A DNA stretch of 64,000 nt from Thiotrichaceae bacterium (GTDB lineage Bacteria > Pseudomonadota > Gammaproteobacteria > Thiotrichales > Thiotrichaceae): contig WFWY01000087.1 in NCBI GenBank assembly GCA_015490895.1, forward strand, positions 1 through 64,000, written 5' to 3'. The translations under genes were made by a program, and so were the position numbers. The notes beneath the pieces were generated by a model. It did not search any database and had not been told where the DNA came from. It worked only from the letters and a program-made list of their open reading frames with translations. Positions 34,514 through 57,169 of this stretch are shown piece by piece; position 1 is the stretch's first letter, and the number at the start of each line of letters is the position of its first letter.

Positions 34514-35260
34514 TCAGGCTACATCGTGTGTACACATTTCGTGGGAAAGATTCAACAAGCCGTCCATGTCCAGAATAGTCACTTCTCTGCGTTGAATACT
34601 AATAACTTGCTGTTTTTCCAGCTTGGCAAACATTCTGCTCAAGGTCTCCGGTGCCATTCCCAAAAAATTTGCCAAATCATGACGAGGCATCGGCAGATTA
34701 AACTGAACACATGAAAAGCCACGTTTTTGATAATAACAGGACAACCTGAGCAAGAAGGTTGCCAGTCGTTCTTCGGTTTGCATTTGCCCCAGAGTCAACA
34801 CCAGCGAATGATGACGATTAATTTCACTACCTACTTGCTGCATCATGACTTTACGCAAACCTGGTAATACTTCACACAAGTTTTCAAAGTTGGCCAACGG
34901 CAATTCACACAGGATGGTATCTTCCATTGCCACCGCATCGCTACTATGCGTATCATCTGCAAAGCCATCAAAACCCAGTAAATCCCCCGGCATATGAAAG
35001 CCCAGTACCTGAGACTGCCCTTTGGAAGTTGAGAGGTAAGTTTTGATGCTCCCTGCCTTGATAGCGTAGACGGACTTCAACGTATCCCCTCGGGAATAAA
35101 GCTTTTGTTTCTTTTGCAGCTTTACCGTCTGGTCGACAGAGCTTTCGAACGTAGACAACTCACTGGCAGACAGGCCATGAGGAAAACAGATCTTTTTCAA
35201 ATTACAATGCGAACAGGAATTTGATGATCCTTTACCTTGATGTGAAATATTGGTAACCAT
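34514..35260 (-). CDS. fnr: Fnr/Anr-type oxygen-sensing transcription regulator
   Basis: A Crp-family regulator whose [4Fe-4S] cluster breaks down in oxygen. From the ATG at 35260 the cluster cysteines fall at 16, 19, 25 and 118, each exactly four before those of E. coli FNR (20, 23, 29, 122), which decides this start over one 36 codons upstream. The recognition helix has ETLSRMFAKL, the E--SR pattern that reads TTGAT half-sites. An FNR box lies just before its start. Fnr-type boxes in the window lie near hemN, DUF2189, the hemerythrin gene and cytochrome c-DUF302, so this regulator probably controls them. Confidence 0.95.
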   Translation of the reverse strand: MVTNISHQGKGSSNSCSHCNLKKICFPHGLSASELSTFESSVDQTVKLQKKQKLYSRGDTLKSVYAIKAGSIKTYLSTSKGQSQVLGFHMPGDLLGFDGFADDTHSSDAVAMEDTILCELPLANFENLCEVLPGLRKVMMQQVGSEINRHHSLVLTLGQMQTEERLATFLLRLSCYYQKRGFSCVQFNLPMPRHDLANFLGMAPETLSRMFAKLEKQQVISIQRREVTILDMDGLLNLSHEMCTHDVA

Positions 35261-35281: not shown

Positions 35282-35295
35282 ATGATAAATATCAA
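35282..35295 (-). promoter_or_regulatory. FNR box before fnr, probably autorepression
   Basis: ATGAT-AAAT-ATCAA matches the consensus TTGAT-N4-ATCAA in 9 of 10 positions. Its centre is only about 28 bp upstream of the fnr start codon, too close for activation at -41.5, so bound Fnr would more likely block its own promoter. Confidence 0.6.
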
Positions 35296-50493: not shown

Positions 50494-50507
50494 TTGATAT
50501 AGGTCAG
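50494..50507. promoter_or_regulatory. weak FNR-like box between ccoN and hemN
   Basis: TTGAT-ATAG-GTCAG has a perfect left half and three of five in the right. There is no convincing -10 at the class II distance in either direction, so it is a weaker candidate than the other boxes. The rest of the 352-bp gap shows no gene. Confidence 0.35.
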
Positions 50508-52052: not shown

Positions 52053-52101
52053 TTGACCTAGCTCAATGCTTTTTACCCTCAATAAAGCTATAACAGGCTC
52101 A
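52053..52101 (+). promoter_or_regulatory. FNR-dependent promoter before the DUF2189 gene
   Basis: FNR box TTGAC-CTAG-CTCAA at 52053-52066 (8 of 10), with its centre at 52059.5. A -10 hexamer TATAAC lies at 52089-52094, exactly where a class II FNR promoter places it, giving a start near 52101. The message would carry a leader of about 230 nt. A copy of degenerate repeat 2 begins just upstream (52021). Confidence 0.6.
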
Positions 52102-52332
52102 TTGTGGCCTTGTCATCTCCGGTTGTACGCAATTACAACTGCTTTCACGCTGAATTATCTGGATATTGAGTAGCAGAAATAGATACAATGCTCCAAAGCA
52201 ACAGGGAATATTTATGCACAGCATTAATCATTCGAGCACAAGTCGAACTGAAAGCGAGAAATAAGCAGGTGAGTGCATAAAGGCACCTGGAGAAAATAAG
52301 CAATCAATCCAATTTAAAGGAGAAGTGTTTCA
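52102..52332 (+). other. long 5' leader of the DUF2189 gene
   Basis: The 52006-52332 gap holds the FNR promoter and then about 230 bases of untranslated leader. Two short frames (52188-52280 and 52214-52264) are open in it, but neither has a good ribosome site. No riboswitch is recognised. Confidence 0.4.
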
Positions 52333-53202
52333 ATGGACACGACACCAGACACTACAAATACCGATGCCAACTACGACTACAGCAAAGAACCCATCGAAAT
52401 CCGTAAAGTGGATACATTGGCTGGTTTTAGGTGGCTAAAAAAAGGCATTAGCGACCTCAAGGTCTCCCCAACACTCAGCCTGGGGTATGGACTGGTTTAT
52501 GCTGCCCTGGGATTAGTGCTCATCGCCCTGACCTATAAAACACCTATTTACGCCTTTGGTATGGTAACCCTGTTTTATATTTTAGGTCCGCTCATTGCCG
52601 TCGGCCTGTATTGCATGAGCCGACATATTGAAGCCGGTGTTAAGCCAAAGTGGGACAGGGAAGGCTGTCGAGCCCTATGCTACAACCCGGAAGGCTATAT
52701 TGGTTTTGCCATCATTATCGGCATGCTGGTTGTTTTCTGGACTATTATTGCCGCCGTCATCATTGCACTGAACATTAACAATCTTGCCATCGGTAACTCA
52801 GTGACAGAAACACTTTCTTTGCTCATGCATAATGAACAAGTCTATCCTGTTATTGGCCTGCTATTTATTGTTGGCCTGGCCTTTGCTGTACTCACCTACA
52901 TGATCAGTGTTATTTCTATCCCCCTGATGACTCATCGCAAGGTCGATGTCGTCACCGCCATGATTGCTAGTGCAAAAGCCGTGATAATGAACCCTGTTGC
53001 CATGTTTATCTGGGCAGCCATTATCGTGGTTATGATCGGCCTGGGGTTCCTGTTTGCCTTTATCGGTATTGCCGTCACCTTGCCTATCATCGGGCATGCC
53101 AGCTGGCACGTTTATCGTGAGCTCATCGTTGACGACCGTGTACTGACCGCAAAACCGGACTGCGACATACCGACTTTGTTCAAAAAGAAAAAAGCAAGCT
53201 AG
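52333..53202 (+). CDS. DUF2189 family integral membrane protein
   Basis: A 289-residue protein with about six membrane helices. The region IRKVDTLAGFRWLKKGISDLKVSPTLSLGYG at residues 15-48 is the DUF2189 signature. AAAGGAGA lies 9 bases before the ATG. The function of the family is unknown; genes of this type often stand near respiratory oxidases. The upstream FNR promoter and the position next to hemN/cbb3 suggest a role at low oxygen. Confidence 0.85.
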   Translation: MDTTPDTTNTDANYDYSKEPIEIRKVDTLAGFRWLKKGISDLKVSPTLSLGYGLVYAALGLVLIALTYKTPIYAFGMVTLFYILGPLIAVGLYCMSRHIEAGVKPKWDREGCRALCYNPEGYIGFAIIIGMLVVFWTIIAAVIIALNINNLAIGNSVTETLSLLMHNEQVYPVIGLLFIVGLAFAVLTYMISVISIPLMTHRKVDVVTAMIASAKAVIMNPVAMFIWAAIIVVMIGLGFLFAFIGIAVTLPIIGHASWHVYRELIVDDRVLTAKPDCDIPTLFKKKKAS

Positions 53203-53222
53203 GGGCCTGCCCGAGAGCAGGA
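53203..53222. repeat. degenerate repeat 2 copy after the DUF2189 gene
   Basis: GGGGCCTGCCCGAGAGCAGG directly after the stop codon resembles the motif after polA and hemN. About 55 bases on, GTTGCAGTAGCTACTCTATAG resembles the other end of the copy at 21090-21110. Confidence 0.35.
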
Positions 53223-53312
53223 AACGTAGCGAAACCACAGACTAGCATAAGCTCGGGCCATGATGGTTCATGAAGGTTGCAGTAGCTACTCTATAGTTCG
53301 ACAAGCTTTCAT

Positions 53313-53353
53313 AAAAAAGGGACGGAAAGTTTTAACCTTCCGCCCCTTTTTTA
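53313..53353. terminator. bidirectional Rho-independent terminator
   Basis: The arms AAAAGGGACGGAA and TTCCGCCCCTTTT pair with one mismatch around a short AT loop; T-runs face both ways. It ends the DUF2189 gene and the convergent small membrane-protein gene. Confidence 0.85.
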
Positions 53354-53411
53354 TGCCCATGATTCACGCTGACTCCAAACAACAACGACCAACAAAAATG
53401 GAGTATAACAC

Positions 53412-53555
53412 TTATCCCGCAGAATGATGCTCGGAGTGCTTTTCCTCTCCTGACAGTTTCACCATTTTATAAATAAAAAAACCCATAAAAACAAAGATGA
53501 AAAGAAGTGTAAACACACTCCAGAAACCAACTTGACTAAATACTATTTCTTTCAT
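53412..53555 (-). CDS. 47-residue small membrane protein, DUF3149-like
   Basis: A small gene on the minus strand: MKEIVFSQVGFWSVFTLLF... with one membrane helix (about residues 9-30) and a polar His/Ser/Glu tail (GEEKHSEHHSAG). A strong AAGGAG lies 8 bases before the ATG. Length and layout resemble DUF3149 proteins, though I am not certain. It lies in the FNR-controlled block, ending 59 bp before a bidirectional terminator, and points away from the hemerythrin operon. The 317 bp upstream of it contain the FNR boxes. Confidence 0.65.
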   Translation of the reverse strand: MKEIVFSQVGFWSVFTLLFIFVFMGFFIYKMVKLSGEEKHSEHHSAG

Positions 53556-53732
53556 CACCAGACTCCTTTAATCGTTATATCTAAAACTTCACTCTGAATG
53601 CGAAATCTCTGATTCATAGCACACCCATAACTACAATCTGAATCCGTGACTTCACAGGTACACGTTATTCAGAGTTCTCTTACAGAGCTTTCTTTTGCAC
53701 TTCCAGCGTAGGCCCTTCGACCCTCTCCTGCC

Positions 53733-53786
53733 TTGCTCTAGATCAAGGCAACATTTAACAGTCTCATCTAAATTGATCTATATCAC
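53733..53786 (+). promoter_or_regulatory. two FNR-type boxes before the hemerythrin operon
   Basis: Box 1 TTGCT-CTAG-ATCAA (53733-53746) and box 2 TTGAT-CTAT-ATCAC (53773-53786) each match the FNR consensus in 9 of 10 positions. With box 1 at -41.5, the -10 would be TAAATT (53769-53774), start near 53781, inside box 2. Box 2 could then repress or respond to a second Crp/Fnr-family regulator, for example a nitric-oxide sensor. Confidence 0.65.
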
Positions 53787-53872
53787 AGCTGATAATGATT
53801 CGAGCAAATTTCAGCAGCTAACCACACCCAGCCTTTTCTTGTCAGACTATACTGGCGACAGTGGAAGAACCT

Positions 53873-54196
53873 ATGAATGAAAATACGACAAAAACTATCA
53901 TCTACCTGCTGATGGTTCTTGGTGCGCTACTCGTGATGGCAGGCGTAGGACTGGCTCTATTAACTGATATTTATCTGGATAATGGAGTAGACGGGGTTTG
54001 GCTTATTGCAGGATTGATAGCGACCGGGCTGTTTCTATTACTCCCTACCAAGCTACTTCTGACAGTACAACTTATGCAGAAAAATGACGCCAGGCGTATC
54101 CACAAACAGGCCCGTCTGGCCACGAGAAAACCTAAAGTGGATGCTTCCAGAACACAACACATCAACCAGAAGGAGAACTACCATGATCAGCTTTGA
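53873..54196 (+). CDS. hypothetical two-helix membrane protein
   Basis: A 107-residue protein with two membrane helices (TIIYLLMVLGALLVMAGVGLALL and GVWLIAGLIATGLFLLLPTKLLL) and a basic C-terminal tail of about 40 residues. I do not recognise the family. Start ATG at 53873 (MNENTTK) follows GGAAGA; a GTG four codons earlier is possible. Its last 14 bases overlap the hemerythrin-like gene, so the two are translated together. FNR-type boxes lie 90-140 bp upstream. Confidence 0.7.
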   Translation: MNENTTKTIIYLLMVLGALLVMAGVGLALLTDIYLDNGVDGVWLIAGLIATGLFLLLPTKLLLTVQLMQKNDARRIHKQARLATRKPKVDASRTQHINQKENYHDQL

Positions 54197-54623
54197 AGAA
54201 CTGACCCAGCAAAATCATAAAATAGCCGAATTATCAAAGGTGCTGTCGCACATCATTAAAGACAGAGAAATTTGTGATACCGATGTCACCTGCGACCTGT
54301 TTTTTGATTTTGTGTCCAGAGTACAGGAACACCTGAATATAGAAGACCGGGAGATCTATCAGGCTCTACTGACGCATAACGAAAGCCGCATAAACAATAC
54401 AGCCAGTCGCTTTCTCTCTGGTTCAGCAGAAATCAAACGTGTCTTCAAACAGTACCTGAAACGCTGGTGTCATAATAATAAATCCCTGAGAATCAAAGAC
54501 CATGCACTCTTCGTGCAGGAGACTAATGATATGTTTAATCTGGTGCTGCAACGGATCCAGGATGAAACCGAACACCTCTATCCCATGGTTAAGGAAGTCG
54601 AACTGGAACGACAAGCCGCTTGA
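54183..54623 (+). CDS. hemerythrin HHE-domain-like protein
   Basis: A 146-residue helical protein. Candidate di-iron ligands are His12 (QNHKIAEL), His50 and Glu54 (VQEHLNIEDREIY, an HxxxE pair), a His around 96-107, and Glu127/His131 (DETEHLYPMV). The pattern suits an HHE hemerythrin domain, which binds oxygen or nitric oxide or repairs iron centres; the ligand set may be incomplete. AAGGAG lies 8 bases before the ATG at 54183, which decides this start over an upstream one. Its stop codon abuts a MITE. Confidence 0.75.
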   Translation: MISFEELTQQNHKIAELSKVLSHIIKDREICDTDVTCDLFFDFVSRVQEHLNIEDREIYQALLTHNESRINNTASRFLSGSAEIKRVFKQYLKRWCHNNKSLRIKDHALFVQETNDMFNLVLQRIQDETEHLYPMVKEVELERQAA

Positions 54624-54807
54624 GGAGGCTCTGATCAAGTCCCAGTCGTTTTCCTGAGGCTCCTTAGGGAGGCTCTGATTAAGCCTGAGTGAAATTTCTC
54701 GGTAGATAGAATTGTTCAGTTTTTACTTGAAAATGAAGCTAATCGTTATTCTATTGAGTTATTTTTAAGAAAGAAATGGGTCGTTCCAGTTTCGAGAAAA
54801 CCGCTCA
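54624..54807 (+). mobile_element. composite MITE between convergent stop codons
   Basis: A 40-bp fragment (54624-54663; GGAGGCTCTGATCAAGTCC...GAGGCTCC) is the end of the divergent subtype. After TTAG comes a copy of the main type from 54668, similar to 60747-60904, that stops at about 54807 before its last 20 bp. The left edge touches the hemerythrin stop codon (54621-54623). On the right the element's CTCA supplies the TGA of the DUF302 gene. Confidence 0.75.
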
Positions 54808-55272
54808 GGATTTGTGCGCCTGTTCCAATATCTCTATAAACTCTTTTTTCCAGGCTTTCAGCTTGGCGGCTATACCCGGATCACTCACCTTTCCCTTCAG
54901 TGATTCAGGGTTAAGGGTGCTTACTACAGTTTCATCACCTTCCGCATAAACTAATAGCTTAAAGGGTATGAAGGGAATAAGCTCAGCATGTTTCTGGCTG
55001 ACCTCCCTGACCTCCCGAAACCGCCCGAAAAAGATAACCCGGTATTTATCCGTTTCATAACCCATTTCTTTTAGCCCGCCATCACAGCGCTGCACATGGG
55101 CAACTCTAAAGCCATTTTTTTGCAAGACTGTTTTCATTATCTCCAGCGTGGTATCAAAACGGTGCTGGATCCGCGTCAGCAAAACCTTGTTATCTTCCTG
55201 TACCTGACTATTGGCCCATGCCGGAAACGTCACCAGAAAGCACACCATTAACATCACTATACTTTTTTTCAT
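54805..55272 (-). CDS. secreted DUF302 protein
   Basis: A 155-residue protein with a signal peptide (1-20, ending TFPAWA). The rest is a DUF302 domain (RFDTTLEIMKTVLQKNGFRV, VIFFGRFREV, PFIPFKLLVYAEGDETVVSTLNPESL). DUF302 has no firm function; it is a small alpha/beta domain often linked to redox proteins. It overlaps the cytochrome c-DUF302 gene by 4 bp (ATGA). Its stop codon lies in a MITE remnant, so the original C-terminus may have been a little longer. Confidence 0.82.
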   Translation of the reverse strand: MKKSIVMLMVCFLVTFPAWANSQVQEDNKVLLTRIQHRFDTTLEIMKTVLQKNGFRVAHVQRCDGGLKEMGYETDKYRVIFFGRFREVREVSQKHAELIPFIPFKLLVYAEGDETVVSTLNPESLKGKVSDPGIAAKLKAWKKEFIEILEQAHKS

Positions 55273-56342
55273 AATGTAGCCTCATCCAGTATATCGTTGT
55301 AACTTTGTTCAATTTCCTGAAACACCTCTTTGAGGCGATCATTATTAAACAGGCTGGCCAATACTTTCACGTTAGCGTAGACCAGCTGAACACTACCGTC
55401 TTGCTTTTCAATCACGGTAAGCTTACAGGGTAAAATTGTGCCCAGTCGTGGCTCAATTTTTAACGCACCATACAACTTGTTAAAATTACAGAAACGAATA
55501 ATGACCTGATGCTGATTGATAGCAAATTCATCAGCCAATCCCTGTTCCAGATAACGCCTGGGAAACACTCTGAAGTTATTAGATCGCACAGCCTCCTGAA
55601 TACGTTTCACGGTTTCATCAAAGCCATACGGTGAATCGGCAAATAAGGTCAACGGCTCATCTTCGAGAACAGAAGTCGATGCCGTTTTTTTCTGGCTGCG
55701 AATATAGGCAATGATATGATGTGTATCCTGATGCGTAAGTGTTGACTTGAACGCAGGCATGGGAGTCCCTGCCCGACCCTCCTGAATGACATGCAACAAA
55801 GCCTGATCGGAAATGGCGTCCTGAAAGGCGGGGTTATTCAATGCCGGGGGCATAACCGGCAACGAGCGTTTTCGTGAAAAAGTAACACCCGTACCCTCCA
55901 CTGAACCCGACAGCGTATCACCGTGGCACATCGCACAGGATTCTTTATAAAGAGACTCACCGATAGCCGCGTCCCCCTTGAAATGAGATGCTCCATCCTT
56001 AACCAGACGAACCGCTCCCCAGGAACGCATATAAGCCACCAGAGCATCAACCTGGCTCTCTTCCAATGACGAGAATGCAGGCATCAAACGTCCGGGACGT
56101 CCCTTGCGAATCGTGTAGCGAATATAATCATCTGTCAAACTCTGTATCACCGAAAGTCTGGATAGAGGTAATCCGATACCCCCCTTTCCATTGCTTCCAT
56201 GACAGCTGGCACACTGCTCATCGAATAGCTGCCTGCCAACATCCTGCTGGCTCGCATAAGCAGGTTTCCCTGGCAGCGTAGCAGCTACCAGAGCAACCAG
56301 ACTCATCATACGGATCGTGTTAACTAATGACTGAAACTGCAT
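55269..56342 (-). CDS. periplasmic dihaem cytochrome c fused to a DUF302 domain
   Basis: A 357-residue protein with a signal peptide (1-30, ending PAYAS). Two class I cytochrome c domains carry CASCHG (Cys44, Cys47, His48) and CAMCHG (about residues 143-147) with later Met ligands (RLMPAFSS, TPMPAF). A C-terminal DUF302 domain (about 240-345; VKRIQEAVRSNNFRV...LPCKLTVIEKQDG) follows. The ATG at 56342 has AGGAG 8 bases upstream. It leads a two-gene operon with a second DUF302 gene, behind an FNR promoter, so it probably serves electron transfer at low oxygen. Confidence 0.88.
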   Translation of the reverse strand: MQFQSLVNTIRMMSLVALVAATLPGKPAYASQQDVGRQLFDEQCASCHGSNGKGGIGLPLSRLSVIQSLTDDYIRYTIRKGRPGRLMPAFSSLEESQVDALVAYMRSWGAVRLVKDGASHFKGDAAIGESLYKESCAMCHGDTLSGSVEGTGVTFSRKRSLPVMPPALNNPAFQDAISDQALLHVIQEGRAGTPMPAFKSTLTHQDTHHIIAYIRSQKKTASTSVLEDEPLTLFADSPYGFDETVKRIQEAVRSNNFRVFPRRYLEQGLADEFAINQHQVIIRFCNFNKLYGALKIEPRLGTILPCKLTVIEKQDGSVQLVYANVKVLASLFNNDRLKEVFQEIEQSYNDILDEATL

Positions 56343-56396
56343 GGGAATCACTCCTGACTACATCTTGTTGCTCTCCGTTTGGGAGCAACACAACCA

Positions 56397-56445
56397 TATA
56401 ATCACTATATTATAATAATCTAATATACTTCTTGACTTACATCAG
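56397..56445 (-). promoter_or_regulatory. FNR-dependent promoter of the cytochrome c-DUF302 operon
   Basis: On the minus strand the box CTGAT-GTAA-GTCAA (56432-56445; 8 of 10) is followed by TATAGT (56404-56409) at exactly the class II distance, putting the start near 56397, about 55 bases before the ATG. A second AT-rich hexamer, TATAAT, overlaps one base upstream. Confidence 0.65.
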
Positions 56446-56785
56446 CTGATACTTACTAATCGGATAGAAGAGATTAATTCCCTGCAAAAAACAAGCAGCA
56501 CAATAAAGAGAAGGCCCGAAAGAAAGGGGAGAGAGGGAGCAAGAAAAAATATACTACTGATTGATTTAAAAGAAAAATTAAAACACTTGTAAGACTCAGG
56601 ACAACGATCAGGTCTTTGCACCTAATAGTTTATTGAAAATTTTTGCAACCGTTCCTCAGGATTTCAAGTATCTATAGGAGACTCTGATTAAGTCCAACCG
56701 AATTTCATCTCACAGGAAAACGATTAGGACTTGATACAAGAGGCTCCTATAGCATACAAGCTTTACGTGAAACACTGGAGATCAT
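56446..56785. other. intergenic stretch with a short MITE
   Basis: The stretch beyond the FNR promoter contains only a purine-rich run (about 56500-56550), the 71-bp MITE at 56677-56747 and the promoter region of the following lipoprotein gene. No gene is visible. Confidence 0.5.
56677..56747. mobile_element. 71-bp short MITE with TATA duplication
   Basis: The ends GGAGACTCTGATTAAGTCC and GGACTTGATACAAGAGGCTCC are inverted repeats. TATA flanks both sides (56673-56676 and 56748-56751). The interior (CGAATTTCATCTCACAGG) joins both ends of the 20864-type element, so this is an internally deleted form. Confidence 0.8.
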
Positions 56786-57169
56786 ATGAATATCACCGGA
56801 GTCCAATGCAGCCTTTCCCTTTTTGTCCTGTTATTGATAACAGGCTGTTCCTCAACAGGCTCGACGACAGGTCATTCATCTTCGAATTACAGGTATAACA
56901 GCTACCCTTCTTCCGGTTACCTGCATGGAAATCACTATAACCACCGATACAACGCTCACCCTTCTTCCAGCTATCTATATAGGAATTATGGGAATCATCA
57001 TGACGGGCATGGCACTTACCCTTCTTCCGGTTATTTACATGGCAACCCATACGATAATAATGGCATACACTATAACTATAATCGTAATCAACCTAACCGG
57101 GCGCATCATTATTACAGGTCGCTGCCCACTCATTACAGAGCCAGTCATACTCCTCACCAGAGATATTAG
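56786..57169 (+). CDS. His/Tyr/Asn-rich repeat lipoprotein
   Basis: A 127-residue protein with a lipoprotein signal (lipobox LITGC, Cys21). The mature part is built of repeated units around YPSSGYLHGN (full copies near residues 40 and 80, a diverged HPSSSYLYRN near 60), with about a quarter of residues His, Tyr or Asn and almost no hydrophobic core. It is probably surface-exposed and could bind metal through histidines, but no family is recognised. TGGAG lies 6 bases before the ATG. It converges on a PPK2 gene. Confidence 0.65.
   Translation: MNITGVQCSLSLFVLLLITGCSSTGSTTGHSSSNYRYNSYPSSGYLHGNHYNHRYNAHPSSSYLYRNYGNHHDGHGTYPSSGYLHGNPYDNNGIHYNYNRNQPNRAHHYYRSLPTHYRASHTPHQRY

Follow-up and report, generated by a model that had tools for sequence, protein, structure and literature searches.

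FNR-type boxes with class II promoter spacing before cytochrome c-DUF302, hemerythrin and DUF2189 genes in a Thiotrichaceae genome

The window analysed here, a stretch of 64,000 nucleotides from a Thiotrichaceae MAG, carries an fnr gene, the divergent ccoN (cbb3 oxidase) and hemN genes, and close to the latter a DUF2189 gene, a hemerythrin operon and a cytochrome c-DUF302 gene. The question raised by this locus is whether the FNR-type boxes before these genes are sites of the window's own Fnr and whether the genes would be switched on together with cbb3 and hemN when oxygen is low, as the original prediction had proposed. All six boxes named in that prediction were found at their coordinates (Table 1).

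The boxes were more frequent than expected. Sites with at most two mismatches numbered 67 across the window against 43.6 expected, and none of 100 shuffles was as high. With the ad hoc FNR matrix that was used for site scoring, 6 of the 11 best-scoring sites were intergenic, while intergenic DNA makes up 12.8% of the window (binomial p = 0.001). In the intergenic regions in question, four in number, there were 5 sites against a shuffle mean of 0.16, and none of 2000 shuffles gave as many. Genome-wide, the pattern with at most one mismatch gave 224 matches against 33 for the reversed pattern; 6 of the 11 perfect sites in the genome lay inside genes, so matching perfectly does not by itself count as evidence.

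Fnr activates from a box centred at -41.5, and the predicted transcript start (+1) was therefore set as box centre + 41.5, the class II register. The -10 hexamers TATAAC (DUF2189) and TATAGT (cytochrome c-DUF302) were indeed located at exactly this register, both with 5/6 matches, which occurs about 1% of the time at a random position in these regions. In none of these promoters did a -35 exceed 3/6. The boxes at 53773, 50494 and 35282 had no class II -10 in register.

Table 1 Features of the window discussed in the text
Feature	Position	Strand	Remarks
fnr, Crp/Fnr regulator	34514..35259	-	translation; CxxCx5C + fourth cysteine; helix ETLSR
FNR-type box ATGATAAATATCAA, just 5' of fnr	35282..35295		pattern match; no class II -10
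FNR-type box TTGATATAGGTCAG, between divergent ccoN and hemN	50494..50507		pattern match
FNR-type box TTGACCTAGCTCAA	52053..52066	+	centre -41.5 from predicted +1 at 52101
-10 hexamer TATAAC, class II register	52089..52094	+	5/6; not kept in G016
DUF2189 membrane protein	52333..53202	+	PF09955, E 2.7e-22
Small membrane-protein ORF, divergent from hemerythrin operon	53415..53555	-	72% identity with the ORF in this location in G016
FNR-type box 1, TTGCTCTAGATCAA	53733..53746	+	class II with TAAATT (4/6) at 53769-53774; predicted +1 53781
FNR-type box 2, TTGATCTATATCAC	53773..53786	+	overlaps start predicted from box 53733
TATACT, alternative -10	53848..53853	+	conserved, TATATT in G016
Small transmembrane protein, 14-base overlap with hemerythrin gene	53873..54196	+	59% identical in G016; no Pfam family
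Hemerythrin HHE-domain protein	54183..54623	+	PF01814, E 7e-6
Secreted DUF302 protein, second gene of cytochrome operon	54805..55272	-	PF03625, E 1.5e-6
Di-haem cytochrome c fused to DUF302	55269..56342	-	two Cytochrome_CBB3 domains + DUF302 (Pfam)
-10 hexamer TATAGT, class II register	56404..56409	-	predicted +1 56397, leader 55 nt; kept in G016, G015
FNR-type box TTGACTTACATCAG	56432..56445	-	pattern match, kept in relatives

Conservation of the boxes was analysed in relatives comprising Thiotrichaceae MAGs, Thiothrix and Leucothrix. In the cytochrome c-DUF302 promoter, the box read towards the gene was CTGATGTAAGTCAA in this genome, CTGATGTACATCAA in G016 (the closest relative, whose contigs C64 and C157 share the gene order) and CTGATATATATCAT in G015, followed in register by TATAGT, TATTAT and TATACT, and both elements were conspicuous in an otherwise diverged promoter. 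G054, Thiothrix caldifontis (G048) and Leucothrix pacifica (G029) also agreed on box and -10, with the spacing one base shorter in two of the three; in T. caldifontis (L128) the promoter had TTGATGTTTATCAA and TATACT. The box and the class II -10 were thus kept in six Thiotrichaceae, and this promoter combines a box at -41.5, an in-register -10 and the lack of a -35 in a conserved arrangement.

A scan of species genomes identified 80 cytochrome c-DUF302 loci, mostly in gammaproteobacteria and some in betaproteobacteria, and 79 of them were scanned for boxes. A box scoring at least 13 was present within 150 bp in 29 of the 79 loci, compared with 7 of the 443 control genes taken from these loci (Fisher p = 4 × 10^-20), and a box scoring at least 15 in 24 of 79 against none of 443; this p-value and the other enrichment p-values below are optimistic, because related loci are not independent. 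The -10 matches peaked where a class II promoter has them: 11 of 34 boxes had a -10 of at least 5/6 at offset 35-36, counted from the start of the box, compared with about 0.6 for each other offset. A smaller peak at offset 33 probably comes from overlapping AATATT/TAATAT runs.

FNR and CRP sites differ by one base per half, and box 53773 ends in C and is CRP-like in this respect, so the boxes might belong to CRP or be AT-rich palindromes that arose by chance and regulate nothing. However, of 33 sites before cytochrome c-DUF302, 27 had T..A as end bases and not one had the CRP-type G..C, which means that these sites are of the FNR type and not the CRP type. Together with the enrichment, the conservation of the boxes largely refutes this explanation and leaves it very improbable.

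The box was absent from more than half of the 79 cytochrome c-DUF302 loci, including those directly behind a parE-like gene: in eight loci (L134, L137, L139, L140, L143, L146, L148 and L171) the gene lay right behind such a gene with no FNR box, and loci of this kind came mostly from Sedimenticola-labelled MAGs. An operon-internal position as the reason for the missing box was not significant (p = 0.18). The genes 5' of cytochrome c-DUF302 varied by lineage, and the DUF302 partner gene followed it in most relatives (54 loci).

Both boxes of the hemerythrin operon could be aligned and were kept in G016, as TTGCCACAGGTCAA and TTGATTTATGTCAT. The counterpart of box 53733 in G016, TTGCCACAGGTCAA, was followed in class II register by TAAAGT, so that two species have a 4/6 hexamer (TAAATT or TAAAGT) at this position and the sister genes have TATCCT. 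The latter was found in the near homologues of the Thiothrix genus: in four genomes a strong box lay 80-92 bases upstream of the ATG and was followed in register by TATCCT; besides G016, the hemerythrin box was also present in G017. A second hemerythrin clade in the same Thiothrix-genus genomes had no boxes. In the own genome, a second hemerythrin gene outside the window did have a box. Among the hemerythrins of the family, 11 of 50 had a box scoring at least 13 within 300 bp against 13 of 253 controls (p = 4 × 10^-4), and in the hemerythrin tree the clustering of the box label was only moderate, with 25 of 500 shuffles equally low. A sequence search of solved structures gave no informative relative for the hemerythrin. 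If the conserved TATACT/TATATT is taken as the -10, box 53773 comes to lie at about -80 here and about -70 in G016, one helical turn apart, and this hexamer could be an alternative promoter of the operon. The small divergent ORF at 53415-53555 shares the box-bearing intergenic region with the hemerythrin operon, and family searches (Pfam, NCBIfam) gave no match for it.

For DUF2189, close homologues kept the box, but neither G016 nor genus g2 kept the class II -10. The G016 orthologue had the box TTGACCAATGTCAA at -275 (-280 in the own genome) with no good in-register -10, and all six g2 homologues had strong boxes without a class II -10; two of them had a possible -10 that would give a class I arrangement, with the box at about -60. 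Since the box was kept and the -10 was not, the class II geometry may be accidental or confined to this genome. A box was present in 7 of 12 close homologues against 13 of 253 controls (p = 3 × 10^-6), whereas only 2 of 29 class-wide homologues scanned had a strong one. DUF2189 genes in general were therefore rejected as Fnr targets, as the class-wide homologues mostly lack boxes; the own paralogue on contig C75 also had no box.

It could then be that function is limited to the boxes of cytochrome c-DUF302 and hemerythrin, and that the DUF2189 box with its TATAAC is a product of chance or specific to the lineage. The register lost in G016, the g2 boxes without a class II -10 and the scarcity of boxes across the class would fit this explanation, but the box at an equal distance in G016, the strong boxes in every g2 homologue and the boxes of duplicated-domain DUF2189 genes in several genomes speak against it, and we regard it as rather unlikely. 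One of these duplicated-domain genes lies in the own genome beside an aa3-type oxidase with the perfect box TTGATCTTTATCAA upstream (L112, G000 contig C151, 6819-8067), which means that the regulon extends past the window. The description of the regulon as local therefore fits the boxes in the window, but not those of this DUF2189 duplicate and of the second hemerythrin.

The window Fnr matched the Fnr structures 5e44/5cvr best among solved structures (E 1e-52) and was aligned along its length, including the cysteines and ETxSR. The CxxCx5C motif and the fourth cysteine were aligned with those of the Fnr structures, and the recognition helix PETLSR was aligned with VETISR, which is the E-x-x-S-R helix of TTGAT type. 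By far the best family match was the NCBIfam Fnr model PRK11161, with 213.2 bits, under the cut-off of 228, so by its sequence the regulator appears Fnr-like in working, yet is just outside this curated subfamily model. The box just before fnr could possibly serve autoregulation.

The genome had ten cyclic-nucleotide-domain matches, and besides Fnr, one of them had an ETxSR-type helix: a 229-aa Crp/Fnr protein (L278, G000 contig C38, 139-828, + strand) with PETFSR and no Fe-S cysteine pattern, whose best NCBIfam match, FtrB, was far below the cut-off. This regulator may share the FNR-type boxes. If such a Crp/Fnr regulator with the same DNA specificity, Dnr/FtrB-like and lacking the Fe-S cysteines, were the main user of the boxes, the signal would be NO or another one instead of or besides oxygen. 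Anr and Dnr of Pseudomonas have one box type in common and hemerythrin-like proteins can bind NO, both of which agree with this idea. But fnr is in the same cluster and was the only Crp/Fnr family member seen in the genome with the Fnr cysteine pattern, the adjacent cbb3 and hemN genes are textbook cases of oxygen control by Fnr/Anr, and three haem-copper oxidase subunit I genes were found in the genome with an NO reductase match in none. A main role of the second regulator is thus improbable.

We consider it likely that the boxes are sites of the window's own Fnr, with class II activation at cytochrome c-DUF302/DUF302 and hemerythrin, in a low-oxygen set with cbb3 and hemN. When oxygen falls, the [4Fe-4S] Fnr dimer would bind the boxes; at -41.5 of the cytochrome c-DUF302/DUF302 and hemerythrin (box 53733) operons it would act as a class II activator of RNA polymerase and compensate for the missing -35. 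DUF2189 would also have a functional Fnr box, class II in this genome, and these three targets would form one low-oxygen gene set with cbb3 and hemN. Box 53773, which overlaps the predicted start, might tune or limit expression. The binding, the activation, the oxygen response and this role of box 53773 are all predictions from sequence. In the comparison with relatives that the original prediction had called for, box and -10 were kept for cytochrome c-DUF302 and hemerythrin, and for DUF2189 the box but not the -10, so an Fnr regulon with class II promoters is supported strongly for the first, well for the second and partially for the third.

The neighbourhood is consistent with this preferred reading. 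Before ccoN in G016 and G015, boxes were present at a similar distance (-258 to -286). In G015 (L110, contig C81, 16009-16260), hemN and cytochrome c-DUF302 are divergent, and each of the two FNR boxes between them has a separate -10 at class II spacing (TAAAAT and TATACT). The di-haem cytochrome, with its CcoP-like c part and DUF302, the secreted DUF302 partner and the hemerythrin-type protein with its small membrane partner would suit low-oxygen respiration in this neighbourhood of cbb3 and hemN. The boxes of these poorly understood genes are conserved, and those of the cytochrome c-DUF302 pair return with their promoter spacing in numerous other bacteria associated with sulfur, so the genes very probably belong to the low-oxygen response, with induction as the predicted outcome.

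Some other observations were made. The third haem-copper oxidase-like subunit I gene (L287, G000 contig C22, 1255-3395, - strand) is accompanied by a CoxB-like gene, lies close to a Crp/Fnr-family gene and resembles known oxidases only remotely (111 bits with CtaD, whose cut-off is 671). The intergenic stretches at window positions 54622-54700 and 56680-56755, which both contain 'gaggctctgat(t/c)aagtcc', are related to each other and resemble copies of one short repeat element. At 56786-57169 (+ strand), a putative lipoprotein has repeats like YNSYPSSGYLHGNHYNH and gave no match in the family search.

Compared with the gammaproteobacterial Fnr/Anr regulon, the TTGATnnnnATCAA boxes, the class II -10 without a -35, the Fe-S type Fnr and the presence of cbb3 and hemN among the presumed targets are the same, but the targets here include the cytochrome c-DUF302/DUF302 pair and DUF2189 proteins. 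The genes add new members to a type of regulon that is already known, with no new mechanism. In the open-access literature searched, we found no paper naming cytochrome c-DUF302/DUF302 or DUF2189 as FNR targets, and nothing relevant on a Thiothrix FNR regulon. In Pseudomonas aeruginosa, the hemerythrin gene mhr and cbb3 are Anr targets (PMC12403760), so that a cbb3-linked hemerythrin gene under a low-oxygen Fnr-type regulator, as predicted here, has a parallel; however, the protein here is of HHE type with a small membrane-protein partner, and it is likened to Mhr by description, not as an orthologue. The DUF302 protein blr5777 of Bradyrhizobium diazoefficiens, listed beside ccoG, is induced under microoxia with a log2 change of 4.3; it carries no mark as a direct FixK2 target and is not stated to be fused to cytochrome c (PMC6515984). 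Both DUF302 genes are near cbb3 assembly genes, with low-oxygen induction known for blr5777 and predicted here, but the protein here is fused to cytochrome c and the likeness is one of domain name.

More tentatively, the cytochrome c-DUF302/DUF302 pair might form a core module of low-oxygen respiration in sulfur-associated gamma- and betaproteobacteria that has so far gone unrecognised. Fnr would switch it on, and it would serve respiration through cbb3, for instance by carrying electrons in the periplasm or as an assembly factor. The cytochrome c-DUF302 promoter is conserved across many lineages and gene contexts, which would tie the pair and the hemerythrin to cbb3 respiration. DUF302 and DUF2189 are uncharacterised families, and the low-oxygen-type promoter of cytochrome c-DUF302 gives a concrete condition under which to search for function.
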